The position numbers and the translations under genes were made by a program. Below are positions 4,144 to 22,254 of a stretch of DNA of 39,174 nt, in pieces. The notes under the pieces are model-generated. The model did not search any database, was not told where the DNA came from, and was given only the letters and a program-made list of their open reading frames with translations. The first letter of the stretch is position 1; each line of letters opens with the position of its first letter. Source of the stretch: Thermoanaerobaculia bacterium. Lineage in GTDB: Bacteria > Acidobacteriota > Thermoanaerobaculia > UBA5066. The DNA lies in assembly GCA_022071945.1 (NCBI GenBank), contig JAJVIN010000059.1, positions 1 through 39,174 on the forward strand, given 5' to 3'.

Positions 4144-7100
4144 GACTCAAGAAGCTCGCGATCGAGAATCTCAACGCCCTCTACGATGCGCACACCGTCG
4201 ACTTCGAGAACGACTTCCAGGGGACCTCTCTCTTCCTCGTGATGGGACCGACGGGATCGGGCAAGAGCACCCTGCTCGACGCGATCTCGCTGGCCCTTTT
4301 CGGCGTGACGCCTCGCCTGGGCCGCACGGGAGGAGCCTCGGACGAGACGATCTTCAACGTCGTCTCCCGGGGCACGGCGAAGGCGCTCGCGGAGCTGGTC
4401 TTCACCAAGACGACACAGGCCGGCGAGGTGCGCTACAAGGCTTCCTGGAGCTGCCGGAGAGCACGCGGCAAGGTCACCGGCGAGTTTCAGAAGCCAAAAC
4501 GAAGCCTTGCCATCTGGCGTGGAGAGACTTCTTCGTGGGAGACGGTCGTCGACAGCGATGTCCAGAAGGTGTTCCAGCCTGCTTTCGACGAGGCTCTCGA
4601 GGGGATGGGACCGGCCGACTTCCAGCGCTCCATGCTCTTGGCCCAGGGTGAGTTCGCCGCCTTCCTCGAGGCTTCCGACATCGAGCGGGCCGACATCCTC
4701 GAACGGCTGACCCGCACCCATCACTACCGCGAGATCGGCAGCCGTGCCAGCGCGAGACGGCAGAGGGCCAGGGAAGAGTTCGAGCGTGTGGACGCCGAGC
4801 TGTCGCAGATCCCTTCATTCTCGCCCGCCGATCTCTTGGAGCTCCAATCGAACCTCGCGCGGACGGAGGAAGACGCACGCCAGCTCCAGCGCCGTCAGGA
4901 CGAGCTGCGCCGCCATCTCCGCTGGCTCGAGGACCTCGAAGCCCTCGGCACGGCCCGTGCCGGGGCCGTGGGCCGGCTGGAGAGGGCGCGGCAGGCGCGG
5001 GAACAGGCACAGCCGGAACTCGCGAGGCTCTCCCTTCATGAGGAGAGCGCCGCGGCCTTCTCGGAGCTCGACGGGAGCGACCAGCTCGGCGGCATGCTGG
5101 AACTGCTGACGCGCGAGATTGAGGATCTCGATCGCCAGGTCGAAGCGGCCGTGAGGGAGACCCAGGCTCTGGCACGGGTTCGAGTCGAGAAAGAGGCGCT
5201 TCTCCAGAAGGCGATCGACGAGCGAGACGCTTCCGAACCCCAGATCATGGAGGCGCGGGTCAGACGACAGGAACGAGACACGGCCACGCGGAGCCTGGAT
5301 GCGCTTCGCGGCCGGCTGAGGCAGGCCGAGGCCGAGGCCCTGCGCCTGGAGGGCGTCGCCAGACCGGCGGCGGAGACGGCTCACAGAGCGCTTCTGGACT
5401 GGGAAGCGGCGGTTGGGGACCTCACTGCCTTGGAGGGCGACGCGGGGTTGCCGGATTCGATTGCGGTTCTCGGGCAACGCCTTCTCTCGCTCGAGGCGGT
5501 TCTCGTCGAGCTCGAAAACGAGACGGCGGCCCTGGCTCGTCTCGAGAGGACGGTGGAGGAGACGGAATCGGCGCGCGTCGACGCAGAGCGGCTGCTTCAG
5601 GAACACGCCCGGAAGGCCCACGAGATCCAGGCGGAACTCTCGCGCGCCTCGGATGCCCTGCAAGCACTTTGCGGCGAGGCAACGAGCGTCGAGGGGGCAC
5701 GATCCGCCTGGACGGAGAGCCGGATGCGGCTCGCCTCCGCGGGGCCGCGCCTGGAGGCCCTGGCGGCCTCCCGGCGGAACCTGGAGCGAGAGCTCGCGCT
5801 CCTGGCGGCGAGACGTCTCGAGCTCGTGGAAGTCGAGTCCCTCGTCGAGGCCGGGCAGCAGCATCTCGGGGGCGTCGTCCTGACGCTCACGGCTTCGCGA
5901 GAGCGCGCCAGAAGGCTCGAGGGCGACCTGGAGATCTACCGCTGGGCCCGGAACCTTGCCGAGGAACGAGACCGGCTTCGGGACTCGGAACCCTGCCCCC
6001 TCTGTGGCTCGACCGGGCACCCCGCGGTCGATGACCCCGGACAGTCCAGGAAAGACCAGGAAGTGCGGGAGCGCTGCGAGGCGATCGCTGCAGAACTCGA
6101 CGCCGAGAAGGCGAGCTTGTCGGCCCTGGAAGAAGACCGCCAGGAAACCGAGAGACGCCTTCACGGGAATCGGGAACGGGCCCTCGACATGCGGAAGGGG
6201 ATCGCGTCCCGGGAGTCTTCCGTCTCCCGGGACGAAGAAGAGATGGCTCGGTTGTCGGAGATCGCCGGCCTTCCGCCCGGTCTTGACGTTCTCGACTTCG
6301 AGCGATTGCGCGAGGAAGCACGGAAGGAAGAAGAGGCGCTGGAGGAATCGCTCCGTCTTCTCTCGGCAGCCGAGGCGGCGGAGCGAGCGGCGTCGGATGC
6401 CTGGCGACAGCACCAGGATCAGGCAGCGCGGTTGCGAGAAGAAGCCGTGAGGCAGCAGGAGACCGTGAGGGTTCTGACCCTTCAGAGGGCAGAGGCCAGG
6501 GAGAAGCTCGCCCGTCGGAAGGACGGCGCGCGCCAGGGGCGAGAGCTCCTCGCCGCGGCGCTTTTGGCCTCGGGTCTGCTCCTCCCGGGGGACCGAATTG
6601 AAGAGCTCAGGGCGGCCGTGGCGGCCGGCAACGAGCGAGCGGAGAGGTTTCGTGCCGCCTCGGAAAGACGGCAGAAGGCGGAGGGGCGGCGCGACCGCAC
6701 TGCCTCGGAAGCGGAACGGGCCGCCCTTCTTGCACGCTCGGCTCGCGAGAGCCACGCCCAGCTGTTCCTTCAGCTCGAGGAGGCCGAGAAAGAGTGGCGG
6801 ATCCTCGACGCCGCGGCACGGGCCGTGCTGTCGGGGCAGGACCCCGACACCCTCTGGGAGCGTCTCAAGGGCGCCGTGGAGGAGGCCCGGCGATCCCTCG
6901 ACGGCGTTTCCAGAAGAGAGGCCGCCCTCCTGCGGGATCTCGCTTCGCTGATGGGTTCCCGTTCCGAAAAGGCCGCGCGGCTCGAAGCTCTCACGGCGGA
7001 AAGGCAGGAGGTCCTCGGACGTCTGCAGGAGGCGCTGATGCTGCTGGAGCTCGACTCGAAAGAGGCGCTTGCGGCGCGGCGGTTGACGCCCGCGGACGTG

Positions 7101-7907
7101 GCGATCCTCACGGACCGGCGAGCGGGCATCGCCGCGGAAGAGTCGGCCGCCGAGACGCTTTCCCAGGTCTCGGAAGAGAACCTCTCCCGGCACGTGAGAA
7201 GCCGTCCCCTCGAGCTGGCGGAAGGGGTGGGAGCCGGCGAGGTGCGCGCGGGGCTCGAGGAGACGGACGGGCGCCTCGGCGAGGCCCTTCGGGCCGCCGG
7301 ACAGCTGAGGGAGCGGGTGAACCAGAATCTCGAAAACGCCTCCCTGCGTTCCAAAAAGCAGGCAGAGAAGGAAGCCGCCCGCAAGGCACTCGACCTCTGG
7401 AGCCGTGTGAACAAGCTCATCGGAGAGAACGACGGGAGGGCGTTCCAGAGATTCGCCCAGATCCTGAATCTGAGAGATCTCCTGCAGAGGGCGAACGCGC
7501 GCCTCGTGAAGCTCCGGCCGCGGTACCGGTTGGTTCCGGCAACGGGGGCCGCTGGCGTGGAGCGTCTGGCGTTCGCGGTGCGGGATGCGGCACACGGCGG
7601 CGAGGAACGGCCGGTGAACACCCTCTCGGGCGGAGAGACGTTTCTCGTCTCGCTGGCCTTGGCGCTGGCCCTGGCCGACTACCGGACCGTCCAGATGCGG
7701 ATCGAGACGCTCTTGCTCGACGAGGGGTTCGGGACCCTCGATCCGAAAACACTTGACGAAGTCATGGGAACGCTGGAGGGCCTCACCGCTCCGGGCACGC
7801 AGATTGGCGTGATCAGCCACCTGGAGGCTCTCGTGCCCCGCATCCAGCCCAAGATCGTGGTGGAGCCCATTGCGCCGGGCCGCTCGAGGCTGAGAGTCGA
7901 CGTCTGA
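4140..7907 (+). CDS. sbcC: Exonuclease SbcCD, ATPase subunit SbcC (zinc-hook SMC-like)
   Basis: 1255 residues from the GTG at 4140, somewhat longer than E. coli SbcC. The N-terminal ABC half has the Walker A motif GPTGSGKS (residues 36-43). Long Glu/Arg/Ala-rich coiled coils (~190-590 and ~640-1080) flank the zinc hook CPLC at residues 619-622. The C-terminal ABC half has the signature LSGGE and the Walker B motif LLLDEGFGTLD. Two SbcC chains dimerise through a zinc ion held by the hooks and drive SbcD nuclease action on DNA ends and hairpins. The frame is open another 99 codons upstream, but that stretch lies over sbcD and is not family-like, so the GTG that overlaps the sbcD stop is used. 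Confidence 0.96.
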   Translation: MRLKKLAIENLNALYDAHTVDFENDFQGTSLFLVMGPTGSGKSTLLDAISLALFGVTPRLGRTGGASDETIFNVVSRGTAKALAELVFTKTTQAGEVRYKASWSCRRARGKVTGEFQKPKRSLAIWRGETSSWETVVDSDVQKVFQPAFDEALEGMGPADFQRSMLLAQGEFAAFLEASDIERADILERLTRTHHYREIGSRASARRQRAREEFERVDAELSQIPSFSPADLLELQSNLARTEEDARQLQRRQDELRRHLRWLEDLEALGTARAGAVGRLERARQAREQAQPELARLSLHEESAAAFSELDGSDQLGGMLELLTREIEDLDRQVEAAVRETQALARVRVEKEALLQKAIDERDASEPQIMEARVRRQERDTATRSLDALRGRLRQAEAEALRLEGVARPAAETAHRALLDWEAAVGDLTALEGDAGLPDSIAVLGQRLLSLEAVLVELENETAALARLERTVEETESARVDAERLLQEHARKAHEIQAELSRASDALQALCGEATSVEGARSAWTESRMRLASAGPRLEALAASRRNLERELALLAARRLELVEVESLVEAGQQHLGGVVLTLTASRERARRLEGDLEIYRWARNLAEERDRLRDSEPCPLCGSTGHPAVDDPGQSRKDQEVRERCEAIAAELDAEKASLSALEEDRQETERRLHGNRERALDMRKGIASRESSVSRDEEEMARLSEIAGLPPGLDVLDFERLREEARKEEEALEESLRLLSAAEAAERAASDAWRQHQDQAARLREEAVRQQETVRVLTLQRAEAREKLARRKDGARQGRELLAAALLASGLLLPGDRIEELRAAVAAGNERAERFRAASERRQKAEGRRDRTASEAERAALLARSARESHAQLFLQLEEAEKEWRILDAAARAVLSGQDPDTLWERLKGAVEEARRSLDGVSRREAALLRDLASLMGSRSEKAARLEALTAERQEVLGRLQEALMLLELDSKEALAARRLTPADVAILTDRRAGIAAEESAAETLSQVSEENLSRHVRSRPLELAEGVGAGEVRAGLEETDGRLGEALRAAGQLRERVNQNLENASLRSKKQAEKEAARKALDLWSRVNKLIGENDGRAFQRFAQILNLRDLLQRANARLVKLRPRYRLVPATGAAGVERLAFAVRDAAHGGEERPVNTLSGGETFLVSLALALALADYRTVQMRIETLLLDEGFGTLDPKTLDEVMGTLEGLTAPGTQIGVISHLEALVPRIQPKIVVEPIAPGRSRLRVDV

Positions 7908-9974: not shown

Positions 9975-10751
9975 CTACAGCCGGCCCTCGGTCTCGAGGC
10001 GGCCGATCAGGCGGAGGAGTCCGTCGAGGATCGTGATCGGGTGCGGGGGACAGCCGGGGATGAAGAGGTCGACCGGAACGGTCGAGGCGGCGCCGCCATG
10101 CTGCTCCGTGCACTCGAAAAACGGTCCACCGCTGATGGCGCACGCTCCCGTCGCGATCACGATCTTCGGCGCGGGAACCGCCGCGTACGTCTTCTCGAGC
10201 GCGAGCCTCATGTTTTCCGTCACCGGTCCCGTGACGATGAGGCCGTCCGCGTGGCGCGGAGACGCGACGATCTGGATTCCGAAGCGGCCCAGATCCCACC
10301 CGACTGTGCCGAGAACATTGATGTCGGCCTCGCAGGCGTTGCAGCCCCCGGCGCTGACCTGACGCAGCTTCAGCGAGCGCCCGAAGAGCCGCTTGAGCTT
10401 CTCGTCGAGCGCTCCGGCGAGAGCGAGCGGGTGGACACCCACGCGGAGTCCCTCTCGTGTCCGTGAGGCGAGCCGGTAGTCGTGAGAGAAGCGAATCGCG
10501 CCTTCTGGACAGGCCCGCTCGCACTCGGGACAGAAGAGGCAGGCCCCGAGATCGACCTCGACTCCGGCCGCCGTCGTCTGGATGGCGCCCGTCGGACAGA
10601 CGGCGGCGCATTCCTGGCAGCCGCTCGGGCAGCGGCCCGCCTCGATCGTGGGCAGGCCCCGGAAGCGCGCCGGCAAGGCAGGCGCTGGCCCGTCGGGCCA
10701 CGTCATCGTCCGGTGCCCCTGCCGGATCCGCTCGAGGATCGTCTTGATCAC
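9975..10751 (-). CDS. HyfI/HycG/NuoB-like iron-sulfur subunit with fused ferredoxin domain
   Basis: 258 residues made of two parts. Residues ~35-90 form a two-[4Fe-4S] ferredoxin: Cys41, 45, 48 and 52 followed by Pro (first spacing C-x3-C, one longer than usual), then Cys71, 74, 77 and 81 with canonical CxxCxxCxxxCP spacing. Residues ~125-258 match the small subunit of group 4 hydrogenases and NuoB, with the proximal-cluster ligands Cys137, Cys140 (GGCNAC), Cys204 (TGAC) and Cys234 (IPGCPPHP). In formate hydrogenlyase the ferredoxin (HycF/HyfH) and small subunit (HycG/HyfI) are separate proteins; here they form a built-in three-cluster wire. It is cytoplasmic and attached to the membrane arm through HyfC. 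It is the last subunit gene of the operon, 10 bases after the HyfG-like gene. Confidence 0.9.
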   Translation of the reverse strand: MIKTILERIRQGHRTMTWPDGPAPALPARFRGLPTIEAGRCPSGCQECAAVCPTGAIQTTAAGVEVDLGACLFCPECERACPEGAIRFSHDYRLASRTREGLRVGVHPLALAGALDEKLKRLFGRSLKLRQVSAGGCNACEADINVLGTVGWDLGRFGIQIVASPRHADGLIVTGPVTENMRLALEKTYAAVPAPKIVIATGACAISGGPFFECTEQHGGAASTVPVDLFIPGCPPHPITILDGLLRLIGRLETEGRL

Positions 10752-10761
10752 GCGCGCGCCC

Positions 10762-12282
10762 TCACAGGTCGTGTCCGCAATAGGAGAGGTTGAAGCTCTT
10801 GTTGCACAGCGGGAAGTCCGAGATTTCCTGGCCGCGAAGCGCGAGCGCGAGTGCGAACCAGTTGTGGAACGAGGGATCGACGATCTTGTAGCGGGCGATC
10901 CGTCCGTCTGCGTCCGTCAGGGCGGCGTGGCAGATCTCGCCGCGCCACCCCTCGGTCAGAGAGACCGCGATGCGGTCCGGCAGGAGCGGACCCGGTTTCG
11001 TCAGGACGGCTCCCTGGGGCAGGGCCCCGAGCTGCTCGGTGACGTAGGTGATCGACTGCTGGGCCTCGAGCCACCTCACGAGAGCCCTCGAGTTGACGTC
11101 CCCGTAGAACGAGGTCGCCACCGGGATGTGAGCGAACTGGTAGATGCCGCTCGGGTGGTCTTGCCGGACGTCGATCTCCACGCCGCAGGCTCGAGCGGCC
11201 ACGCCGACAAAGCCGAGGCTTCTCGCGTCCTCGCGCGAGACGGCTCCCGTGTTCTCGAAACGGGCGACGACGCTAGGGGTCGCCCAGAGAAGCTCCACGG
11301 CTCCTCTGAGGTCCCTCGCCACGGCGGTCAGTTTCTCGAGGAGCTCTTCCTTCTCCCTGCCGTCGAGATCGAATCCGGTCCCGCCCGGCCGGACGAGGCC
11401 GCGGCCGAACCGGCTCCCGCACAGGCTGGCCGTCAAGTTGAGAAAGTCCCCCCGAATCCGCCCGCAAAAAGACAGGGTGGGGAGATAGCCGACATCCCCG
11501 GCGAGCGCGCCGAGATCGCCCGTGTGATTCGCGAGCCGCTCGAGCTCGAGCGCGATCCCCCTCAGGAACTGGGCCCGCGCGGGGGGCTTCGTCCCCGACA
11601 GGGCCTCGATGGTTTGGCAGTAGGCGAGCGCGTGACCGATGGTCGTGTCGCCCGCGATGGTCTCCATCTGCGAAAGCGTGGACCTGTGAGGGCCGCCACA
11701 CAGCGCCCGCTCGATTCCCCGGTGCTGGTACCCGAGCGAGATCTCGAGGTGATAGACCTCTTCTCCGTGACACTGGAACCGGAAGTGCCCGGGCTCGATC
11801 ACCCCGGCGTGCACGGGTCCGACCGCGACCTCGTGAACCTCCTCGCCCTCGACCTGGAAGAAGTCCGTGACCCCCACGACCGGCGGGCCGCCATCCGGTC
11901 CGGACCAGACGCGGGAGCCCTCCCGCCAGCTGTCGTGGAACCGGATCGGCTTCAACCATGGGTGCCCGGCGGGGGTGACACCGTACTGCTCCGCGAGCTC
12001 GCGCTCGAACCAGTGCGCCTGCGGGCAATCCGGAGTCAACGATGGGTAAGAGCTCTCGGCGAGGCAGGTGCGGGCAACGTCGAGGGTCGATTCCTGGTCC
12101 TCGGCCAGGATCGCGTAGAGGGCGAGGCCGTCGCTTTCCTCGGATCCGAAGAACGCCGCCAGACGGGCTCCGGCGGCGATGCGGGTTCGCAGCGCCGCGC
12201 GGAACTCCGCGAGCTCGACCGTCGCGACACGGCTTCTCGGGATCGCGAGACCGTTTCTCGTACTCGTGAAGACGTCTCTCAC
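10762..12282 (-). CDS. HyfG/HycE-like large subunit lacking the NiFe cysteines (Ehr type)
   Basis: 506 residues from the GTG at 12282, which overlaps the upstream stop by four bases. Residues ~20-115 are a NuoC-like 30-kDa domain (WFERELAEQYGV, HPWLKPIRF). Residues ~150-506 are the NuoD/HycE-like large subunit (EVAVGPVHAG, EPGHF, GYQHRGIER, LELERLANH). A NiFe hydrogenase needs CxxC near residue 210 and another CxxC at the C-terminus. Here the first is IAGDTTIGH (Ala210 and Thr213 in place of Cys, His217 kept). The C-terminus reads SFNLSYCGHDL and stops, with Ser500 and Gly503 at the ligand positions and no cleavable tail. It should not bind Ni-Fe. It belongs with the Ehr (energy-converting hydrogenase-related) large subunits; its substrate may be a quinone or another carrier, which is unproven. 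Confidence 0.9.
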   Translation of the reverse strand: MRDVFTSTRNGLAIPRSRVATVELAEFRAALRTRIAAGARLAAFFGSEESDGLALYAILAEDQESTLDVARTCLAESSYPSLTPDCPQAHWFERELAEQYGVTPAGHPWLKPIRFHDSWREGSRVWSGPDGGPPVVGVTDFFQVEGEEVHEVAVGPVHAGVIEPGHFRFQCHGEEVYHLEISLGYQHRGIERALCGGPHRSTLSQMETIAGDTTIGHALAYCQTIEALSGTKPPARAQFLRGIALELERLANHTGDLGALAGDVGYLPTLSFCGRIRGDFLNLTASLCGSRFGRGLVRPGGTGFDLDGREKEELLEKLTAVARDLRGAVELLWATPSVVARFENTGAVSREDARSLGFVGVAARACGVEIDVRQDHPSGIYQFAHIPVATSFYGDVNSRALVRWLEAQQSITYVTEQLGALPQGAVLTKPGPLLPDRIAVSLTEGWRGEICHAALTDADGRIARYKIVDPSFHNWFALALALRGQEISDFPLCNKSFNLSYCGHDL

Positions 12283-13715
12283 GGACGGGCCCCCAGCATG
12301 GCGGAGGCTTCCTCCAGGAGAGTCCGGAGCGGGGCCGGAATCCACAATCCGAGCATCAGGACCAAGCCCAGAGAGACGAAGATCGGAAGGGTCTTGCGGA
12401 GCCGGTCCTTGTACGTGTGCCGCAACGACTCTTCGGAGGGGCGGCCCTGGACGACGGCGAAAACGGTGGTCCCCATGCCGATGAAAATCACACAGAGAGC
12501 CGCCAGGAAGACCGCGGCGAGGCCCCAGCGATCCGACCTGATGGCGGCCGACAGGATCGTGAACTCGCTGACGAAGGGGCCGAAAGGCGGGGACCCGGTC
12601 ACCGCGAAGAAACCCGCGAGAAACAGCGGCCCCGACATCGGGAGACGCCGGATCGCGCCCGACACCTCCGTCACGTTCTTGCTCCCGTAGGCCCTGTGGA
12701 TGTTCCCGGCCGCCAGGAACATGACGCCCTTCGTCAGCGCGTTGTTCACCGTGTGGAGAAGGGCGCCGAAGATGCCGAGCCCGCCGAGACCGATCCCGAG
12801 AACGAGAATGCCCATCTGTTCGACGCTCGAGTAGGCGAGCAGACGCTTGATGTCCTTCTGGCGGACCATGAAGGCGGCCGCGACGAGGAGCGAGAGAACG
12901 CCCAGGGTGACGAGGAGCTCGCGAGCGAAGGCTCCCTCTCCTCCAGCCTCGATGATGGCGTAGCCGCGCAGGAGGGCGAGGAAGGCACACGTCGTCATGC
13001 CGCCGGCCAGAAGAGCTCCGACGAGACCCGGGGCCTCGCCGTAGGCGTCGGGCTTCCAGGAATGGAGGGGCGCCAGGCCCATCTTCGTTCCGTATCCGAC
13101 GAGGAGAAAGACGAACCCGCCCCGAAGCCACGGGCGCGAAAAGCCCGCGGCGTTCTCGTGAAGGGTCCGGAAAAAGAGCGAGACCTCGCTTCCCGAGAGG
13201 TGGGCCGCGTAAGCGATGAAGAGGGACCCGAGAAGCGCGATGGCGATCCCCACCGACCCGATCATCAGGTACTTCCACGCCGCCTCGAGCGAACGGCTGC
13301 TGCGGTTGAAGTAGAGGAGCGGGGCCGTGGCCAGCGTCGTCGTCTCGATGGCGACCCAGAGGAGCCCCAGGTGCTGCGAGAGCGCCACGGCGGAAGTCAT
13401 GCCGAGAAAGATGAAGAGGCAGCTCGTGAAGAGGCGGCTGTCCCTGTCGAGCCGGACGAGGAGGTAGCCCGGGGCATAGAACGAGCAGATGGCGAAGAGA
13501 GTGCTGACGATGAGGAGGACGAGCCCGCCGAGCGCGTCGATCGCGAGCCATTCGCCCCCCCGGCCCGACCCGCGTGAGGAGACGGCAGCCAGGGACAGGA
13601 CGAGATGCGCGGTGCCTCCGGCGGGGAGGATCATCAACCGGACCCTGTTCGAGGGGACCACATACGCGACGGCGGCGATGGCGAGGGGCAATAGGATCAA
13701 GAGCATCGCGGGCAT
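12279..13715 (-). CDS. HyfF-like antiporter-type membrane subunit (NuoN/M/L family)
   Basis: 478 residues with about 14 membrane helices. The ion-channel residues of Mrp/NuoLMN subunits are present: Glu124 in WVAIETTTL (TM5), Lys211 in GYGTKMGLAPLHSWKPDA (TM7), then the broken-helix segment QKDIKRLLAYSS (Lys287 and Lys290) and HTVNNALTKG (His321 and Lys329). This is the second proton- or sodium-pumping subunit of the complex. It sits between the HyfE-like gene (4-base gap) and the HyfG-like gene (4-base overlap). Length and residue set look complete, so pumping should be intact even though the catalytic module has changed. Confidence 0.9.
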   Translation of the reverse strand: MPAMLLILLPLAIAAVAYVVPSNRVRLMILPAGGTAHLVLSLAAVSSRGSGRGGEWLAIDALGGLVLLIVSTLFAICSFYAPGYLLVRLDRDSRLFTSCLFIFLGMTSAVALSQHLGLLWVAIETTTLATAPLLYFNRSSRSLEAAWKYLMIGSVGIAIALLGSLFIAYAAHLSGSEVSLFFRTLHENAAGFSRPWLRGGFVFLLVGYGTKMGLAPLHSWKPDAYGEAPGLVGALLAGGMTTCAFLALLRGYAIIEAGGEGAFARELLVTLGVLSLLVAAAFMVRQKDIKRLLAYSSVEQMGILVLGIGLGGLGIFGALLHTVNNALTKGVMFLAAGNIHRAYGSKNVTEVSGAIRRLPMSGPLFLAGFFAVTGSPPFGPFVSEFTILSAAIRSDRWGLAAVFLAALCVIFIGMGTTVFAVVQGRPSEESLRHTYKDRLRKTLPIFVSLGLVLMLGLWIPAPLRTLLEEASAMLGARP

Positions 13716-13719
13716 GGCG

Positions 13720-14361
13720 TCAGTCCCGAAGCTCCGCCAAGTGCTCGGTGTCCAGCGAGGCGAACTCCTCCCGGATCCGGTTCATGATGATGCCCATGAC
13801 GAAGATCCCGACGAACAGGTCGAGAAGAACCCCGATCTCGACCATGAAGGGCATCGCGTCGATCAGGAGCAGGCCGAAGATGAAGATCCCGTTCTCGAGG
13901 ACGAGGTAGCCCACCACCTGGGAGATCGCCTTGCGGCGCGTGACGAGAATCAGGAACCCCGTGAAGACCGTCGAGAGCGCCGCCGGCACGAGAAGGCCTC
14001 CGGCATGTTCCGGAGCGAGCGGCAACTTGCTCGAGAACAGAATCGCCATCCCCGATCCTCCCGCCCCGATGAAGAGCGATGCGAGGAACCCCACGTACGG
14101 CTCCACCTCGTGCCGGATCTGAACGTCCCGCATCGCCTTCTGCAGGAGTCCCGGGATCACGAGCCCCTTCAGGGTCGCGGCACCGGCCGCCATGACGAGG
14201 ATGTGCCAGCGGACCTCCTGCTGGACGAGGAGGGGCAAGACGGCGAGGATCGCCCCCTGAGCCGCCGATGCCCGGATCGTCGCCCTCATGCGGCTCGTGC
14301 CGAGAACGACGAAGTTCACGAGCATCACCAGGACGAGGACGGGGTCGGCAAAAAGCGTCAT
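13720..14361 (-). CDS. HyfE-like membrane subunit (NuoK-related)
   Basis: 213 residues, about six to seven membrane helices. It matches HyfE of hydrogenase-4 and Ehr clusters in size and layout. The C-terminal half resembles NuoK/MnhC, with a buried acidic residue in VVGYLVLENGIF and another in MPFMVEIGVLLDLFVG, as expected for a link in the proton path. The chain ends with a charged cytoplasmic tail (RIREEFASLDTEHLAELRD). Formate hydrogenlyase-1 lacks this subunit, so its presence places the operon with the Hyf/Ehr type. Gaps of four bases on each side indicate one transcript. Confidence 0.87.
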   Translation of the reverse strand: MTLFADPVLVLVMLVNFVVLGTSRMRATIRASAAQGAILAVLPLLVQQEVRWHILVMAAGAATLKGLVIPGLLQKAMRDVQIRHEVEPYVGFLASLFIGAGGSGMAILFSSKLPLAPEHAGGLLVPAALSTVFTGFLILVTRRKAISQVVGYLVLENGIFIFGLLLIDAMPFMVEIGVLLDLFVGIFVMGIIMNRIREEFASLDTEHLAELRD

Positions 14362-14365
14362 CGGG

Positions 14366-15286
14366 TCACCGCACCACGAGGAGCATCCCGAAGGCGCTGA
14401 GAACAGAGGCCGTGACGAGGAGCTGCGGCACTCGCGAAAGGCGCAGTCGTGCCGTGATCGACTCGACGACCCCGACCGAGATCGCGAGGAACACCATTCC
14501 GGCCACGAAACCGATCCAGTCGAGGCCCGGATCGAGTTGCCCGAACGGGAAGAGAAGGTGCAAGAGAAGCGCCCCGAGGACGAAGAGCTTGACCGAGGCC
14601 CCGTACAGGATGACGCCGAACGCGGGCCCGCTGTGATCGAGCACCATCACTTCGTGGATCATCGTCAGCTCGAGGTGCGTGTTGGGGTCATCGAAGGGAA
14701 TACGGCAGTTTTCCGCCAGAAGGACGATGGCCCAGCTGGCGGCCACGAGGACGAGGGACGCGCCCCGCGTCAGCCAGCCCGCGCTCCACGGATCGTGAAG
14801 CATCGGTCCGAGCGAAAGGGAGCCGGAAAGCCGCGCCAGGACCAGGAGGCCGAGGATCAGCGCCGGCTCCGCCAGGCTGCCGAAGCTCACCTCGCGAGCG
14901 GCTCCCATCCCCTCGAAGGCCGAGCCCGTGTCGAGGGCGGCGGTGGCGGTGAAGAAACGCGCGAGCCCGAAGAGGTAGACGAAGAGAAAGAGGTCTCCCT
15001 CGAACGAAACCGGGGCCGGGTGCCGGCCGAGGGGGACGAACTGGGCGGCCAGAAGGCCCGAGGCGAGCCCGATGGCCGGAGCCGCCCGGAACACCCACGT
15101 CGTCGTCGAGCTGAAGACGGAGCCCTTCCTGAAAAGCCGCGCCAGATCGTAGTAGGGCTGCAGGAGAGGCGGACCGGTCCTCCCGGCAAAGACGGCCTTC
15201 GTCTTGTTGATCACGCCCAGAAGCAGCGGCGGCATGAACAACAGGAGGATCTCGTGAATCGCGATGCTGGCGAGATAGGTCCCCAC
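14366..15286 (-). CDS. HyfC/HycD/NuoH-like membrane anchor subunit
   Basis: 306 residues, about eight helices. The family landmarks are GRTGPPLLQPYYDLARLFRK near residue 34 and the acidic loop NCRIPFDDPNTHLELTMIHE near 190, followed by DHSGPAF. This subunit binds the peripheral arm (HyfG/HyfI) and, in complex I, forms the entrance of the quinone cavity; the conserved acidic loop is intact. The start ATG at 15286 is separated by one base from the stop of the HyfB-like gene. Confidence 0.92.
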   Translation of the reverse strand: MGTYLASIAIHEILLLFMPPLLLGVINKTKAVFAGRTGPPLLQPYYDLARLFRKGSVFSSTTTWVFRAAPAIGLASGLLAAQFVPLGRHPAPVSFEGDLFLFVYLFGLARFFTATAALDTGSAFEGMGAAREVSFGSLAEPALILGLLVLARLSGSLSLGPMLHDPWSAGWLTRGASLVLVAASWAIVLLAENCRIPFDDPNTHLELTMIHEVMVLDHSGPAFGVILYGASVKLFVLGALLLHLLFPFGQLDPGLDWIGFVAGMVFLAISVGVVESITARLRLSRVPQLLVTASVLSAFGMLLVVR

Positions 15287-15287
15287 G

Positions 15288-17255
15288 TCACACCCGCCAC
15301 AGGAGAACGAGCAAGATGATGACGACGTAGAGAAGGTACAGCTGCATCTGACCTCGCTGGATCACTCTCGCCCGGCTCAGAAGCCACCCGCCTCGCCTGA
15401 AAGCGGGAACGAGGATCCTGTCGAGAACCGCGTCGGGAACGTGGCTTTCGTAGTGCCCCTTCGCCGGAAAGGGATGCGGGAAGCGGGGCTTCTCTTCACG
15501 GGGCGAGAGGGCCCACCGGAAGAGGTCGACACTCCAGGAGGCGAAGGAAGAGGACGTGTACTGCATCCGGCTGGTGCCCGCGGCGTAGCCGCAGTCCCAC
15601 GTGGGGAGGGGCTGCCTTCTCGCGACGTCGTCGCGCAGGCGGCGGGCCAGAAGCCAGGAGACCCCGAGGAGCACCGCGGCGATGGCGATCTGGACGAGCG
15701 AGAGGGTTGCGAGGGGAGCCGCCCTCGAGACATCCGCGGGAAGACCTGCCCCCAGACACGCGCGGTTGAGCAGAGGCGCGGTGGCGAAGGGGAAGAGACC
15801 AACGAAGACACAGAGTCCGGAGAGGATCAGAAGAGGCAGAGTCATCGCGCTCGCCTCGTGCGCGCGAAAGGTCGCGGGATCTCGCGGGGTGCCGAGGAAG
15901 ACCGTGCCGAAGGCCTTCACGAAGCAGGAAAGGGCGAGGCCCCCGATCAGGGCGAGCGCCGCAGCCGCACCCGCGGCCCCGATCGCGACCGGCCCCGGGG
16001 ACGTGGCCGGACGCAAGAGCCCGAGGTAGATCAGGAACTCGCTGACGAACCCGTTGAGAGGAGGCAGCCCGCAGATCGCGACGGCTCCGACGAGAAACGT
16101 GCTCGAGGTTCTCGGGAGCCTTCCGAGGAGTCCGCCCATCCGGTCCATCTCGCGGGTACCCGTCGCGTGAATCACCGATCCCGCTCCGAGAAATAGGAGG
16201 GCCTTGAAGAAAGCGTGGTTGACGACGTGCAAGAGCCCGCCGGCCAGGCCGAGGACGGCCCAGACGGGCTCCCCGAGGGACCGGCCCCCGAGCCAGAGGC
16301 CGAGCCCCATCGTGATGATGCCGATGTTCTCGATCGAGTGGTAAGCCAGGAGCTTCTTCAGGTCGTGCTGCCCGAGGGCGTAGGCGACGCCCAGAACTCC
16401 GGAGACGGCTCCGAACGCGAGCAAGACCCCGCCCCAGAGGAGTGGAGGATCGGGGAAGAGCGAGAGGATCCTCACCAGGCCGTAGATTCCCGTCTTGATC
16501 AGAACGCCCGACATCAGCGCCGAGACATGGCTCGGAGTCGCGGCGTGGGCGCCCGGAAGCCAGATGTGCATCGGCATGATCCCCGCCTTCAGCCCGAAGC
16601 CGAAGAGGGCGAGCCAGAAGACCGCCATTCCGGCGGGAGAAGAGGCGAGGCCCGCCCGCAAGAGCCCGAGATGGAAGGAGCCCTCGTTGAGAGAGGCGAC
16701 GATGGCGAACAACGCGAAGAGGGCGAGAGTTCCGGTGTGAGTGGCCGTGATGTAGATCCAGCCGGCCTGCCTCACGTCACGCCGCCGCCCCTCGGTCAGA
16801 ACCATCAGGAAAGCCCCGAGCGCCATCACTTCCCACGCCATCAGGAAGAGGATCGAGTTTCTCGCAACGAAGACGATGGCGATGGCCGACGTCGTCACGC
16901 CATAGAAGAGCCTCAAGAGCGGGGCCGTCCTGGGGTGGCGAAGCGGGGGCCAGTAACTCGTCGCGTAGACGGCGCCGAGACCCGAGATGACGAAAAGGGG
17001 CAGCAGGAAGAGAGCGGAGAGCCCGTCGACCGCGATCTCGAGCAACGCCCCCGGCAGGTGCCACTCGAGCCGTAGCGGCGGGCCGCCCACCCCGGCGACG
17101 GCCGTCCCCACGGCCGCGAGCCCCACGAGGGAGCCGGTCACGAGGAGGGCCGCCGAAAAGAGATCCGCCCCGCGGGAGTGCTTGCGGGCAAGCAGGGGCG
17201 GGAGTCCGCTCACGGCCGAAAGGGCCGCCGCGATGACGACGAGAAGGGCGCTCAC
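15288..17255 (-). CDS. HyfB-like large antiporter subunit (NuoL/M family)
   Basis: 655 residues, about 16 membrane helices, the usual HyfB length. It has Glu142 in WEVMALGAF (TM5), Lys223 in GFGLKAGIMPMHIWLPGAH (TM7), Lys254 in VLIKTGIYG, and the GQHDLKKLLAYHSIENIG broken helix. The C-terminal ~100 residues after the last antiporter helix contain the Hyf-type tail (TWDCGYA, then RMQYTSSSF). It is the first structural gene of the complex, 31 bases after the HTH-EIIA gene, and starts with the ATG at 17255. Together with the HyfF-like protein it makes two pump modules. Confidence 0.92.
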   Translation of the reverse strand: MSALLVVIAAALSAVSGLPPLLARKHSRGADLFSAALLVTGSLVGLAAVGTAVAGVGGPPLRLEWHLPGALLEIAVDGLSALFLLPLFVISGLGAVYATSYWPPLRHPRTAPLLRLFYGVTTSAIAIVFVARNSILFLMAWEVMALGAFLMVLTEGRRRDVRQAGWIYITATHTGTLALFALFAIVASLNEGSFHLGLLRAGLASSPAGMAVFWLALFGFGLKAGIMPMHIWLPGAHAATPSHVSALMSGVLIKTGIYGLVRILSLFPDPPLLWGGVLLAFGAVSGVLGVAYALGQHDLKKLLAYHSIENIGIITMGLGLWLGGRSLGEPVWAVLGLAGGLLHVVNHAFFKALLFLGAGSVIHATGTREMDRMGGLLGRLPRTSSTFLVGAVAICGLPPLNGFVSEFLIYLGLLRPATSPGPVAIGAAGAAAALALIGGLALSCFVKAFGTVFLGTPRDPATFRAHEASAMTLPLLILSGLCVFVGLFPFATAPLLNRACLGAGLPADVSRAAPLATLSLVQIAIAAVLLGVSWLLARRLRDDVARRQPLPTWDCGYAAGTSRMQYTSSSFASWSVDLFRWALSPREEKPRFPHPFPAKGHYESHVPDAVLDRILVPAFRRGGWLLSRARVIQRGQMQLYLLYVVIILLVLLWRV

Positions 17256-17286: not shown

Positions 17287-17988
17287 TCACGACCCGCCTC
17301 CCTGGGCCCCCCGCAAGACCGAGCTTTCGAGATCGCGCGCCAACCGCAGGAGGACCTCGGGGGACGTCTTCGCCATCACCGCGTCGTGGAAACCTGAATT
17401 CCTCAGAAGCAGCGCGAGGCGGGCCAGGAGGTGCAGATGGGTGCGCACCGTCGGGGTCACGAGGGTGAAGATCGTGTGCACGGGCTTGCCGTCGAGGGCA
17501 CCGAAGTCCACTGCCTTTTCGAGATAGCAGAGCGAGACGAGAGGCTCCTCGACGTGGAGGACGATGGGGCTCCTGACGTGGGGGAGGGCGATTCCGTCCC
17601 CGATTCCGGTCGAACCGACGGCCTCGCGGGCGACCAGGATGTCGTAGAGGAACTCCTGGTCGACCTCGTCGGGCAGCGGCAGGCGGGAGACCACGGCCCT
17701 GAGGGCGGATTCCCTCGTCTCTCCGGGCACTGCGAAGTACACGCCGCCACGTGCGAGGCCCTCCGCGATCCGGGGAAGCGAGCCTCTGGCGGAGGCTTCG
17801 TGCTCCCTCAGAAGCGCCGGGGAAAGAGAGAGCCCCTGGGCCGTTCCCCACTCGAGGAGCTCCGAGCGGCTGAAACGATGCTGATCCCTGAGCTTGTAGA
17901 CCGGGATGCTTCCCTCCTCGATCCACCGGTAGACGGTTCCTTCGGGGACTCCGAACATCTCGGCGGCGTCGCGGACCGTCAGCTTCAT
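17287..17988 (-). CDS. HTH (excisionase/MerR-like) - PTS EIIA fusion regulator
   Basis: 233 residues. Residues 1-50 form a small winged helix of the excisionase/HTH_17 type (LTVRDAAEMFGV, TVYRWIEEGSIPVYK, HRFSRSELLEW). Residues ~78-225 form a PTS EIIA type-2 (fructose/mannitol/Ntr) domain, with the phosphorylatable histidine His137 in GIGDGIALPHVRSP. No EIIB or EIIC domain and no sugar permease is near, so this is a regulatory EIIA like PtsN rather than a transporter part. It probably binds DNA in a phosphorylation-dependent way. It is the first gene of the Hyf-like operon, and an inverted repeat lies about 50 bases upstream of its start. It may therefore control the complex in response to the PEP/pyruvate or nitrogen-PTS state; this is inference. 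Confidence 0.87.
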   Translation of the reverse strand: MKLTVRDAAEMFGVPEGTVYRWIEEGSIPVYKLRDQHRFSRSELLEWGTAQGLSLSPALLREHEASARGSLPRIAEGLARGGVYFAVPGETRESALRAVVSRLPLPDEVDQEFLYDILVAREAVGSTGIGDGIALPHVRSPIVLHVEEPLVSLCYLEKAVDFGALDGKPVHTIFTLVTPTVRTHLHLLARLALLLRNSGFHDAVMAKTSPEVLLRLARDLESSVLRGAQGGGS

Positions 17989-18131: not shown

Positions 18132-18893
18132 TCACTCGGCCGGGTTCTTCTCCCAGGTGCCGTAGATCGGGTTGGGGAGGGCGAAGTACCGGACCCCGAA
18201 GTCATCGAAAGCCTGTTCAGGCTTGTCGCGGAGTTCCTGGCTTCGGTCCGGGAAGTCCTGGATGTTGTCTCCGACGAAGACGAGGATCTCCAGGGGAGCG
18301 GCTCCGGGCCGGGCGGTCCCCTCGGCGATCGCCTTCCAGCGGGCTTCCTTCCGATCTCCGCCGGCGTCGGGCCGGCAGAGCACGAGGTCGTGCGGAAGGC
18401 CGAGCGAATCGAGGTTCGCCACGACGTCCTGGCAAAGTGATTCCGCTGTGTTCGTCACGACGGCGACTCTTCCCCCGAGCTTCCTGACGCCCTCGAGGAA
18501 GGTCCTGGCTCCGGGAGTCGCCGTTCGTTCTCTTCTCTTGACCCATTCGCCCCACTTCGCCATGTCGACCGGTCCCCCTCCCTTGAGCTGACGCTCCTTG
18601 TCGAACAGGGAGTTGTCGATGATCGTCTCGTCGGCGTCGACGGAGACCGCCCATGTTCCAGGGGCCTTTCCGGCGCTGAGCCGCTCCGCGGCGGCGAGGG
18701 CAGCCCGGTAAGTCTGGATCGTGATGGCCCGGTACTCGGCGGAAGTCCTGAGCCACCTGAGGCTCGAGGAGAACGTAGGAGGTGGAGCTGGCTGGGCCGT
18801 CACCGGCTGGGCAGGCACGGTCCTGGGAGCGGGCGACTGCTGCGAGCAGCCAGAGACGAGGACCAGCGAAAGGAGGGTCGCGGTTCGGCGCAT
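18132..18893 (-). CDS. Acid phosphatase lipoprotein, class C / e(P4)-like HAD family
   Basis: 253 residues. The signal sequence ends in a lipobox LVSG-Cys16, followed by a Pro/Gln-rich linker, so the protein is probably anchored to the outer membrane or periplasmic face. The HAD motifs are motif I VDADET (nucleophile Asp86, acid Asp88), motif II VVTNT and motif IV FVGDNIQDF. The order and the small size match class C nonspecific acid phosphatases such as the 5'-nucleotidase lipoprotein e(P4), which strips phosphate from nucleotides outside the cytoplasm. The second ATG (18893) is preferred because AAGGGA lies just upstream; the first ATG (18905) has no spaced ribosome site. It stands alone between the lyase and HTH-EIIA genes. 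Confidence 0.85.
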   Translation of the reverse strand: MRRTATLLSLVLVSGCSQQSPAPRTVPAQPVTAQPAPPPTFSSSLRWLRTSAEYRAITIQTYRAALAAAERLSAGKAPGTWAVSVDADETIIDNSLFDKERQLKGGGPVDMAKWGEWVKRRERTATPGARTFLEGVRKLGGRVAVVTNTAESLCQDVVANLDSLGLPHDLVLCRPDAGGDRKEARWKAIAEGTARPGAAPLEILVFVGDNIQDFPDRSQELRDKPEQAFDDFGVRYFALPNPIYGTWEKNPAE

Positions 18894-18918
18894 GTGTCCC
18901 TTCATCCTGGAAAGAGTA

Positions 18919-18959: not shown

Positions 18960-21629
18960 TCAGATGATCGGTTCGAAACGGCCCTGGAAGAAGCGGAGGG
19001 CGGGGGGTTCGTAGACGAACTTCAGGCCCTTGATCTCGTTGCGTCTCTCGTAGAGTCGCTTGATGCCGTCGGCGACGGCCTTCATGTGGTCGTTCGTGTA
19101 GACGCGGCGCGGGATCGTGAGGCGGACGAGCTCGAGGGCGGGGCGGTAGTTCTTCCCGTTCGCGTCGCGGCCCTTCGAGACGTTTCCACGCTCCATGACC
19201 CTCACGCCGGTCTCGAGGTAGATCTCGGCGGCGAGGCGCTGTGCGGGGTACTCGTCCTGGTCGACGTGCGGCAGGAACCGCTTGACGTCGATGAAGACGG
19301 CGTGGCTGCCTGTCGGGGCGACGACGGGAACCCCCGCCTCGGTGAGGCGGTTGGCCAGCCACGCGGCCTGTTCCACGCGGGTGCGGATGTAGCGGTCGTC
19401 GAGCATCTCCTCGACGCCGCGGGCCATGGCGGCCAGATCCGCCGCGGGGAGGCCTCCGTCACGCACGCCGCCCTCGTAGATCCGGAGCTTCTCCTCGGCG
19501 GCCCGGGCCCACTCCGCGTTGTCCTTGAAGGCCAGAAGGCCGCCGATGTTGATGAGGAAGTCCTTCTTGCCCGAGACCGTGCAGCCGTCGCCGTGGGCCA
19601 TCATCTCCCTGACGATGTCCCGGATGTGCGTCCGGTGATAGCGCGGGTCGCGCTTCTGGATCATGTAGGCGTTCTCGACGGCGCGGGTCGCGTCGAAGAG
19701 GACGGGGATGCCGCGCGGACGGCAGTAGGCGTAAACGTCTCTGAGGTTGTCCATGCTGACCGGCTGTCCGCCCGCCATGTTCACGGAGAACTCGAACGAG
19801 ATGTACGAGATCTGCCGCGCGCCGTGCTTCGATACGAGCGCGTCGAGCTTTGCGAGGTCGATGTTGCCCTTCCAGGGGAACTCGCTGACGGGGTCGTGCG
19901 CCTCGTCGACGATGATGTCGACGAAGATCCCGCCCGCGAGCTCCTGGTGGAGCTTCGTCGTCGTGAAGTACATGTTGCCCGGGACGAACTGACCGGGCTT
20001 GATCAACACCTCGCTCTGGATCTGCTCGGCGGCCCGCCCCTGGTGAGTGGGCAGGATGTACTCGTAGCCGTAGATCTCCTTCATCGCGGAAACGAAGCGG
20101 TGGTAGGCCTCGCTCGTCGCCGGTGTGGAGGAGGCGCCGTCGTACGCCGCCCACTGGTCGGTGCTCATCGCGGTCGTTCCCGAGTCGGTCAGAAGGTCGA
20201 TGGCGACGTCGGCCGACCGGAGGAGAAACGTGTTGAAGCCCGCCTCGCGAACCGCCTTCTCGCGCTCCTCGCGCGTCGTTCTGGCTATCGGCTCGATCGT
20301 GTGGATGAGGAACGGATAGCAGTCGAACTCGTGATTCTCGAGCCCGGCGAAGATGGAGCGGAACTTCAGCTGGTCGTTCCAGTCGCCGTCCACCTCGATG
20401 TCGAGCGGGGCGATGTGGTCCCTCTGGGAGAACAGCGAGATGAGGGCGTCCGCCACCTGATCGAGCTGCAGCGTCGTCATCGCCAGGCGCGGGATCTGGA
20501 CAGGGACGAGGTGATCTCGCCGGGCGTGACCGGGAACGACGGCACGCACGCCGGACATCTGGTAGAGAGCCGCACAAAGCGCGTGCTCGGGGAACTGCTT
20601 GATCGAGGGGAGGAACTCGTCCGCCTTGATGTAGGCCCCGTCGCACCCTCTCTCGAGCGGGATTCCGGCGGCGCGCAGGCGCTCGGTGAAGTGCTCGGTC
20701 TGGTACATGACCCACTGGACTTCCGCCTCGTCGCACATCTCGTCGATACCGCGCGCCAGGACTTCCATCGTGCGCCCGGCCATGCCGCCGTAAGTGTGGA
20801 GCCCCTCGTAGACGACGACCTGGTTGATGAAGTGCTCGTGGTCGCCCGGGTTGTCGGTCGCCAGAAGCCCGCCCGTGTTGCACTTGGGATCCTGCGCCCC
20901 GTCGATCAGGACGATGTGGGCCGTCTTCGCGATCTGCTTGACGAGGTCGGCGATCGTACGGTCGCTCTGGCCGGGTTCGTGCCGCTGGATGTACCAGGCG
21001 TTCTCGATGACGCGCGAGACGTCGAGGACGAGGCGGAGACCGAAGCGGTCGGCGACCTTGCGGACCTCGCGGAGGTTCGCGAGGCTGGCGGGGTGCTGCC
21101 CGTCCGCGAAGCACTGCATGCCGATGATGGCGGCCTTGCGCTCTAGAAGGGCCGTCTCGAGCCGGGCCAGGTCGAAATTGCCGGTGAAGACCTTCTCGGC
21201 CGCGTCGCGCAGGGGCGTGATGTCGATTCCGCGGGGGGCGTGCACGTCGATCCGGCCCTGTGCATTGCTCGGAATGAACGAGCCCTTCGGGGTCAGGGTC
21301 GCCACGATGAGCTTGATCGCGCCGAGGCTGTTGTGCGTCGGGCAGACGTAGGTGTGCCCCAGAACGCGGTTCACCACCGCCTCGAGAGTCTCGAAGTTGC
21401 GGGCGCCCGCGTAGGCCTCGTCGCCGATGAGCTGGCCGGAGATCTGCTCCTGGCTCATCGCGCTCGTCCCGTACGAGACCATGTCGAAGCTGATCTGCGA
21501 CGGCGTCAGGTTGAAGACGTTGAAGTGCGCCCTGAGGAGATTCCGTTTCCGCTCTTCCGGAGTCGGAAACGAGATCGATCGGACGGTCTTGATCTTGTGG
21601 GGCTCGTGAATCGGGGGGAGTGGGGCCAC
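18960..21629 (-). CDS. Tandem-fused tyrosine phenol-lyase-like PLP protein (one degenerate half)
   Basis: 889 residues, twice the family length (~450). Two fold-type-I PLP lyase domains are joined head to tail (about 1-440 and 441-889). The C half keeps the PLP phosphate loop THQGR (528-532), FTTT (555-558), FDATR (Asp646 and Arg649), the Schiff-base region SGKKD (Lys688/689), the MERG Arg814 and the LRFF end. The last features favour tyrosine phenol-lyase (Arg and Phe) over tryptophanase (Ile and His). The N half reads THNSL, DGAQD (Ala/Gln for the lysines) and PGHARR at these sites, but it alone keeps DEAYAG (70-75) and YEGLHTYGG (274-282), which the C half has lost. It would split tyrosine to phenol, pyruvate and ammonia. 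The start is a GTG with AGGAGGA 7 bases upstream. Confidence 0.9.
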   Translation of the reverse strand: MAPLPPIHEPHKIKTVRSISFPTPEERKRNLLRAHFNVFNLTPSQISFDMVSYGTSAMSQEQISGQLIGDEAYAGARNFETLEAVVNRVLGHTYVCPTHNSLGAIKLIVATLTPKGSFIPSNAQGRIDVHAPRGIDITPLRDAAEKVFTGNFDLARLETALLERKAAIIGMQCFADGQHPASLANLREVRKVADRFGLRLVLDVSRVIENAWYIQRHEPGQSDRTIADLVKQIAKTAHIVLIDGAQDPKCNTGGLLATDNPGDHEHFINQVVVYEGLHTYGGMAGRTMEVLARGIDEMCDEAEVQWVMYQTEHFTERLRAAGIPLERGCDGAYIKADEFLPSIKQFPEHALCAALYQMSGVRAVVPGHARRDHLVPVQIPRLAMTTLQLDQVADALISLFSQRDHIAPLDIEVDGDWNDQLKFRSIFAGLENHEFDCYPFLIHTIEPIARTTREEREKAVREAGFNTFLLRSADVAIDLLTDSGTTAMSTDQWAAYDGASSTPATSEAYHRFVSAMKEIYGYEYILPTHQGRAAEQIQSEVLIKPGQFVPGNMYFTTTKLHQELAGGIFVDIIVDEAHDPVSEFPWKGNIDLAKLDALVSKHGARQISYISFEFSVNMAGGQPVSMDNLRDVYAYCRPRGIPVLFDATRAVENAYMIQKRDPRYHRTHIRDIVREMMAHGDGCTVSGKKDFLINIGGLLAFKDNAEWARAAEEKLRIYEGGVRDGGLPAADLAAMARGVEEMLDDRYIRTRVEQAAWLANRLTEAGVPVVAPTGSHAVFIDVKRFLPHVDQDEYPAQRLAAEIYLETGVRVMERGNVSKGRDANGKNYRPALELVRLTIPRRVYTNDHMKAVADGIKRLYERRNEIKGLKFVYEPPALRFFQGRFEPII

Positions 21630-21741
21630 GGCGAGTCCTCCTGAAGTGGTGGAAAAATCTTAGGGACCGCGGCCCCGGACGGGAATATCGGCTGTTAGCA
21701 CGTTGTGGATTTCTCCTAACGATTCAGAGCAGAATGTCGTC
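21630..21741. promoter_or_regulatory. Divergent control region between the lyase and Lrp genes
   Basis: This 112-bp region must hold both divergent promoters. It contains GTTAG (21694-21698) and CTAAC (21716-21720) as inverted 5-bp arms 17 bases apart, in a locally AT-rich stretch. This is a plausible but weak site for the adjacent Lrp/AsnC protein. The lyase ribosome site AGGAGGA lies at its left edge. Confidence 0.4.
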
Positions 21742-22254
21742 ATGCACTTTCAGAAAGAAAAGTACCTGGATCAGAAGGGGTGGGGGATCCTGAAGGAGCT
21801 CCAGACCGACGCCCGGCTGAGCATGGCGGAGCTCGGCCGCAGGGTCGGGCTCTCGACGCCGGCGGTGGCGGAGAGAGTGAGGAACCTGGAGGCTTCTGGG
21901 ATCCTGGCGGGTTACCGGGCGGAGATCGACCTCGTGAAGGTGGGGCTGCCGATCCGGGCCGTGGTGCGGGTCAGCGTCGTGGGTGACGTGCTGGCGCGGA
22001 TCACCGCTCTCGTCCGTTCCATGCCCGAGGTTCTGGAGTGCCACCGGGGAACGGGGGCGGACTCTTTCATCATGAAGGTCGCCGTTTCCTCGGTGGAGCA
22101 TCTCGAGGCCCTCATCGATCGGTTGACGCCGTTCGGAACGACCTCGACCTCGATCATCCTCTCGTCTCCCGTCGAGAGGCGAGTGATCGAGAAGCCCGGG
22201 CCGGAGCACGCCCGGTCGGCCAGGGGTGCCCGGCCGGGCCGAACGCCCGGGTGA
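21742..22254 (+). CDS. Lrp/AsnC-family transcriptional regulator
   Basis: 170 residues. Residues ~8-60 are the AsnC-type winged helix (DQKGWGILKELQTDAR, then LSMAELGRRVGLSTPAVAERV, then LEASGILAGYRAEID). Residues ~68-145 are the RAM ligand-binding and oligomerisation domain (AVVRVSV, MPEVLECHRGTGADSFIMKV). The last ~20 residues are an Arg/Gly/Pro-rich tail. Such proteins form octamers that sense amino acids. Divergent placement from the tyrosine phenol-lyase-like gene makes that gene the likely target and an aromatic amino acid the likely ligand; this is inference. An upstream in-frame ATG (21703) would extend the protein by 13 residues into the promoter region, so the ATG at 21742 is used. 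Confidence 0.9.
   Translation: MHFQKEKYLDQKGWGILKELQTDARLSMAELGRRVGLSTPAVAERVRNLEASGILAGYRAEIDLVKVGLPIRAVVRVSVVGDVLARITALVRSMPEVLECHRGTGADSFIMKVAVSSVEHLEALIDRLTPFGTTSTSIILSSPVERRVIEKPGPEHARSARGARPGRTPG

Follow-up and report, generated by a model that had tools for sequence, protein, structure and literature searches.

A fused double tyrosine phenol-lyase-like protein whose two halves very probably share the active-site labour of an ancestral homodimer

Each active site of the fold-type-I PLP enzymes is built from two subunits. In E. coli tryptophanase (TnaA, EC 4.1.99.1), the hydroxyls of Tyr74 and Tyr307 of one subunit form hydrogen bonds with the phosphate of the PLP bound by the other subunit of the catalytic dimer (PMC2770544). 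Tyr72* from the other chain donates a proton to the leaving ring in P. vulgaris TIL (PMC11301627), and Tyr71 is the proton donor in tyrosine phenol-lyase (TPL, EC 4.1.99.2) (PMC9262865). The alignment places Tyr74 and Tyr307 of E. coli TnaA at Y71 and Y291 of TPL, respectively.

Asymmetric pairs of PLP domains have precedents by analogy in the GLDC P-protein, which is fused, and in serine palmitoyltransferase, which is not; in both, the asymmetry is ancient and comparison with a symmetric ancestor is difficult. In the GLDC P-protein, Lys754 of the C-terminal half is the PLP lysine, and its counterpart in the N-terminal fold is Gln (PMC7259800). In serine palmitoyltransferase (LCB1/LCB2), one subunit carries the PLP lysine, and the other, which lacks it, is believed to contribute residues to one common active site (PMC3794620).

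The window, i.e. the whole stretch of 39,174 nucleotides that was analysed, encodes on its minus strand (18960..21629) a fused double TPL-like protein of 889 aa (P0001) with a GTG start, and an AGGAGG ribosome-binding site was read from the sequence 7 nt 5' of this GTG (21637..21642, minus strand). GC by codon position in the 889-aa ORF is 0.65/0.41/0.92, the typical pattern of a high-GC3 gene; the ORF is a real gene. The N half comprises aa 1-436 (20322..21629, minus strand) and the C half aa 437-889 plus the stop (18960..20321, minus strand). Identity to Citrobacter TPL is 30% for the N half and 52% for the C half, the two halves being 27% identical to each other, and the C half (435-886) matches TPL 1c7g with an E value of 1.1e-156. 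TIGR02618 matches the protein in two separate stretches, its score of 874 bits against a cut-off of 720.7 being the sum over both, and the TIGR02617 score lies below its own cut-off.

Residue-by-residue reading bore out the preliminary description of two lyase domains in one chain with the named motifs at their places, and also its claim of complementary motif sets. In TPL numbering, Tyr71, Tyr291 and Glu69 are found in the N half, and the C half has the PLP lysine together with the phosphate loop, Arg381, Arg404 and Phe448. The N half thus combines a degenerate PLP pocket with the putative donor residues in trans. Its DEAYAG motif (aa 70-75; 21405..21422, minus strand) contains E71 (TPL E69) and Y73 (TPL Y71, the proton donor in trans), and its YEGLHTYGG motif (aa 274-282; 20784..20810, minus strand) contains Y280, equivalent to TPL Y291 and E. 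coli TnaA Tyr307. DGAQD (aa 243-247; 20889..20903, minus strand) stands where SGKKD is expected, Gln replacing the PLP lysine. N100, L102, D243, A245, Q246, P366 and P376 occupy the positions of TPL Q98, R100, S254, K256, K257, R381 and R404, respectively, and the N half has no F448 equivalent.

The C half presents a complete PLP and substrate site lacking the trans residues. SGKKD is retained (aa 686-690; 19560..19574, minus strand) with K689 as the PLP lysine (TPL K257), SSTPAT (aa 500-505; 20115..20132, minus strand) stands at the DEAYAG site, and YEGGVRDGG (aa 718-726; 19452..19478, minus strand) brings D724 to the position of TPL Y291; S501, P503 and G721 are found at TPL E69, Y71 and M288. 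K689, Q530 and R532 supply the PLP lysine and phosphate loop of TPL (Lys257, Gln98, Arg100) that are missing in the N half, and T556, D646, R649, S686, K688, R814, R836 and F880 are held as well. The tyrosine-specific Arg381, Thr124, Phe448 and Met379 (TPL numbering) are present in the C half and kept in all readable C halves of the family described below, and the tryptophanase-type Ile/Val381 and His448 are not found in the C half, which has R814 and F880 instead.

The C half carries all cis active-site residues of TPL (C. freundii 2ez1, E. herbicola 1c7g), including Arg381, Thr124 and Phe448. However, the chain has 889 aa and two lyase domains as compared to the single domain of about 456 aa in TPL, neither half has a complete set, and the two trans tyrosines, which homo-oligomeric TPL carries on the domain of the PLP lysine, occur in the N half only. 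Judged by its sequence, the fused protein is a TPL derivative which does not fit the definition of TPL as a self-sufficient homo-oligomeric domain. It has a fold in common with TnaA, in which Tyr74 and Tyr307 also act in trans (PMC2770544), but TnaA is a stand-alone homotetramer with Ile/Val at 381 and His at 448, where the C half has Arg and Phe. In its architecture alone, and not by sequence membership, the protein resembles the GLDC P-protein: a fused fold-type-I pair with the PLP lysine in the C-terminal half and an N-terminal half lacking it, with Gln at that place in most N halves. The GLDC P-protein belongs to another family with other chemistry, and here the split can be traced residue by residue against living stand-alone relatives. 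Serine palmitoyltransferase likewise pairs a PLP-lysine partner with a lysine-less one around a single active site; it is, however, encoded by two separate genes and is a eukaryotic membrane enzyme of different chemistry.

When 61 related genomes were searched with the whole protein, seven double-length proteins were obtained, one from the window itself and six others at 69-83% identity; a further search, of 396 genomes from the phylum with the N half as query, raised the number of Acidobacteriota genomes with such a protein to 14. A scan of GTDB contigs revealed doubles in Acidobacteriota, Gemmatimonadota, Myxococcota, Planctomycetota, Lysobacterales, Desulfobacterales, Chloroflexi and Bacteroidota; its seeds were the GDEAYAG and EGLHTYG patterns, and it therefore favours N halves in which one or both survive. 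The unseeded sets are the 14 Acidobacteriota genomes and the C-half-only queries on Bacteroidota and Gemmatimonadota genomes, and in the latter each strong match was again a double ORF. After the removal of copies, about 50 distinct fused proteins remained, with a gap of 12-30 aa between the two domain matches and an identity among N halves as low as 31% (∼69% divergence). Doubles occur on single-contig chromosomes (CP070722, CP070815 and CP070670) and in one isolate, Plebeiobacterium marinum D04 of the Bacteroidota (L074, NZ_JAPDPI010000035.1). A frameshift or assembly joint, named in the preliminary description as a possible undoing of its reading, is excluded by these about 50 distinct double ORFs, the single-contig chromosomes and the isolate. 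Unfused N- or C-half genes as intermediates were not seen across the homologue searches (Acidobacteriota, GTDB contigs, Bacteroidota and Gemmatimonadota), the one lone N half (L070) having a sequence that runs past its contig end, and no published account of such a double TPL was found in the open-access literature, which was incompletely covered. In a Myxococcota relative (L104:1414-4164), a long open alanine-rich extension of AAAAAIPA-like repeats lies upstream of the fused lyase ORF; it is probably merely open frame ahead of the true start.

Both motif sets, the conservation of which in double-length homologues the preliminary description had put up for checking, were found on alignment of both halves of the about 50 relatives to show no free variation. 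Every readable N half (TPL numbering throughout) has Tyr71, Tyr291 and Glu69, and all of them show Asn in place of Gln98, have lost Ser51, Arg404 and Arg381, and have no Phe448 equivalent. Position 257 of the N half is Gln, being His or Arg only in three Gemmatimonadota (L153, L154 and L155). Lys256/257, Gln98, Arg100, Ser254, Arg381, Arg404 and Phe448 are present in all C halves where the sequence extends there, L066 being left out of the C-half counts on account of an apparent frameshift near its C end. The C halves all lack Tyr71 and Tyr291, with P, A, T, S, C, I, Q or N at 71 and D, N, S or T at 291; in L083, positions 69-71 read 'TPY' by HMM alignment and D-T-P by MAFFT, the Tyr lying one place on. 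Glu69 is lost from the C halves of Acidobacteriota and Gemmatimonadota, and several other clades have Glu or Asp there. In the 86 stand-alone homologues examined, Tyr71, Tyr291, the two lysines and the phosphate loop are present without exception.

When the 187 positions invariant in 43 stand-alone TPLs were followed, both halves had kept 29, the N half alone 16, the C half alone 77 and neither half 10, with the remainder intermediate. The N-only positions fall mostly in the segments 67-80 and 282-300, which hold Tyr71 and Tyr291, and the C-only positions include Ser51, Gln98, Arg100, Thr124, Asn185, Ser254, Lys256/257, Arg381, Arg404 and Phe448. The random-draw probability that Tyr71 and Tyr291 are both N-only is 0.007, and the conservation among homologues is a stronger argument than this figure: the motif split also holds in all readable doubles from queries not centred on the motifs, and is therefore not due to chance.

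As read from the residues, the N-half set is the published trans pair and the C-half set the cis set, which matches the division described for tryptophanase and TPL (PMC2770544, PMC11301627). Retention of the trans tyrosines by one half and of the cis set by the other suggests a shared composite site, and it is very probable that the protein is a duplicated and fused TPL, the halves of which share the labour of the ancestral homodimer through a site made of the C-half PLP and the N-half tyrosines. The C half would bind PLP through K689 and hold the residues recognising the substrate carboxylate and the phenol, and the N half, no longer able to bind PLP as a Schiff base, would lend the partner-type residues. 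Tyr73 (TPL Tyr71) would act as the general acid protonating the leaving aromatic ring, Tyr280 (TPL Tyr291) would reach the PLP phosphate, and Glu71 (Glu69) would also be lent by the N half. The split of residues between the halves suggests that only this composite site is complete and that the reciprocal one has lost both contributions, leaving one site per chain. The predicted reaction is the cleavage of L-tyrosine, or of a closely similar compound, by β-elimination to phenol, pyruvate and ammonia, or its reverse. Some activity on other substrates persists when Tyr71 of TPL is altered (PMC3870968), which suggests that, where the leaving group is a good one, the C half could manage without the N half.

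The location of the composite site was approached through a structural model. AF2 on a 53-row alignment gave a pLDDT of 92.5 and a pTM of 0.91, as compared to a pLDDT of only 38 in a single-sequence run, so the relative placing of the halves in the model is a confident one. The C half of the model superposes on TPL 2ycn with an rmsd of 1.2 Å over 453 aligned residues; GLDC is not among the best 50 Foldseek matches listed, and the Foldseek matches cover the C half only. DSSP of the model shows eight-residue arm strands at aa 11-18 (21576..21599, minus strand) and aa 440-447 (20289..20312, minus strand), and short strands at 58-59 and 488-489. By residue counts, the N-half arm is positive (K14, R17) and the C-half arm negative or neutral (H443, E446). 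The non-catalytic interface of tryptophanase is a four-stranded sheet of residues 12-17 and 58-60 (PMC2770544), and the four modelled strands appear to match its elements.

The arms show a second complementarity. Stand-alone enzymes carry Lys11 and Glu14 (TPL numbering). Of these two residues, the N halves retain only Lys11, with Arg or Lys at position 14, and the C halves retain only Glu14, Lys11 being replaced mostly by His, but also by Ala, Thr, Ser, Gln or Tyr. Residues 11 and 14 map into the tryptophanase-type non-catalytic interface, where these charges would favour N:C over N:N or C:C pairing, and the arm residues 11 and 14 of the two halves would presumably be in direct contact.

The modelled strands, read with the tryptophanase sheet (PMC2770544), suggest that the N and C halves of one chain pair through the non-catalytic interface. 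On balance, it is thus slightly favoured that the active sites form between chains (N1:C2 and C1:N2), as in the TPL tetramer, with two active sites, and the charge-complementary arms are consistent with it; the strand partners are, however, read from a model, and the arm charges indicate only an N:C non-catalytic contact, not that this contact is intrachain. The likely assembly would be a dimer of fused chains that imitates the TPL tetramer and in which both types of interface bring an N half against a C half. The preliminary description had proposed a pseudo-dimer in which the two halves of one chain share a single site. Its division of residues agrees with the published cis/trans division, but for its in-chain location the hints from the model point rather to sites between chains. 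A catalytic (A:B) pair formed by the two halves of a single chain is a possibility of lower probability: it accords with the complementary motif sets, the short gap between the domain matches of the fused chain and the fixed domain arrangement suggested by the pTM, but the modelled strands resemble the non-catalytic sheet of tryptophanase, and the eight-residue arm strands, having no other obvious partner in the DSSP assignment, suggest intrachain pairing there. A more elaborate proposal, that an obligate asymmetric tetramer has arisen from a symmetric one, with both interfaces N:C-specific, sites between two chains and the N-half pocket (THN, DGxQD) turned into an effector site, is unlikely.

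A regulatory role of the N half, the alternative named in the preliminary description, would be compatible with the composite site; with a ligand of its own bound in the emptied pocket, it appears rather improbable. The high conservation of the N-specific residues (TPL98 Q to N, 254 S to D, 257 K to Q and 317 A to W) speaks for it, but the pocket positions 214 (D/N) and 217 (R/Y/Q/H/C and others) vary, and 257 is not Gln in the three Gemmatimonadota. Regulation also leaves unexplained why Tyr71, Tyr291, Glu69 and their segments have been retained in the N half and why both tyrosines have been lost from the C half.

The evolutionary history of the composite enzyme was followed in a quick IQ-TREE phylogeny under a mixture model, in which the N halves form one clade and the C halves another, each with an SH-aLRT of 100. 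The C halves are placed among TPL-type stand-alone enzymes, and the N halves lie on a long branch of unsure placement, for which the tree warns of long branches meeting. The major splits recur in both halves (Desulfobacterales/Myxococcota, two Bacteroidales sets and an Acidobacteriota-Gemmatimonadota set), as expected after one fusion. pN/pS is 0.31-0.49 for the N half and 0.18-0.33 for the C half; both halves are under purifying selection, which is weaker on the N half. A decaying N half, an accidental fusion or an assembly error, in favour of which only the faster evolution of the N half can be cited, is rejected in view of the about 50 distinct open double ORFs, the congruent clades, the purifying selection on both halves and the invariant trans residues, and the earlier remark that simple decay does not fit is thereby upheld.

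With its Arg381, Thr124, Met379 and Phe448, the C half would be expected to use tyrosine or one of its close analogues, and not tryptophan, as the substrate; the same genome has a separate tryptophanase-type paralogue (L132) with Ile381 and His448. An Lrp/AsnC-family regulator gene (21703..22254, plus strand) lies divergent from the fused lyase gene, about 70 bp away, and also adjoins it in L051, L054, L055 and L062 of the Acidobacteriota and Lysobacterales (60-76% identity), and more distantly and weakly in two Bacteroidota loci, L074 and L075. The fused lyase is possibly controlled by this divergent regulator, and such a neighbour fits amino-acid-responsive catabolism. No operon is common to all fused loci, the Lrp/AsnC gene being the only recurrent neighbour. 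In the Bacteroidales locus L072, the neighbours encode a VorB-like 2-oxoacid oxidoreductase subunit, an ADP-forming acyl-CoA ligase-like protein and an aminotransferase, and related neighbours are found in L073, L076 and L063.

The occurrence of about 50 fused sequences inside a family rich in stand-alone symmetric members makes the division of labour readable site by site. Database labels such as tyrosine phenol-lyase and tryptophanase can mask a different architecture. TPL is used for L-DOPA production, and N:C-specific pairing would offer a natural handle for its engineering.

Other genes of the window were also recorded. Directly downstream of the fused lyase gene lies a HAD acid phosphatase gene (Acid_phosphat_B; 18132-18905, minus strand), and 17287-17988 (minus strand) encodes an HTH_17 DNA-binding domain fused to PTS EIIA_2, an unusual setting beside complex-I-like genes. 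A run of complex-I/hydrogenase-4-like membrane genes occupies 9975-17255 (minus strand) and comprises Oxidored_q6 with a ferredoxin domain, a 49kDa/30kDa large subunit, two Proton_antipo_M, NADHdh and an Oxidored_q2-like protein. No CxxC pair was seen near the RGIERALCGGPH motif of the large subunit (10762-12282), so a NiFe site may be missing from it, as it is from hydrogenase-related complexes. An SbcD-like phosphoesterase and an SbcC-like SMC ATPase are encoded as a pair at 2929-7907 (plus strand).
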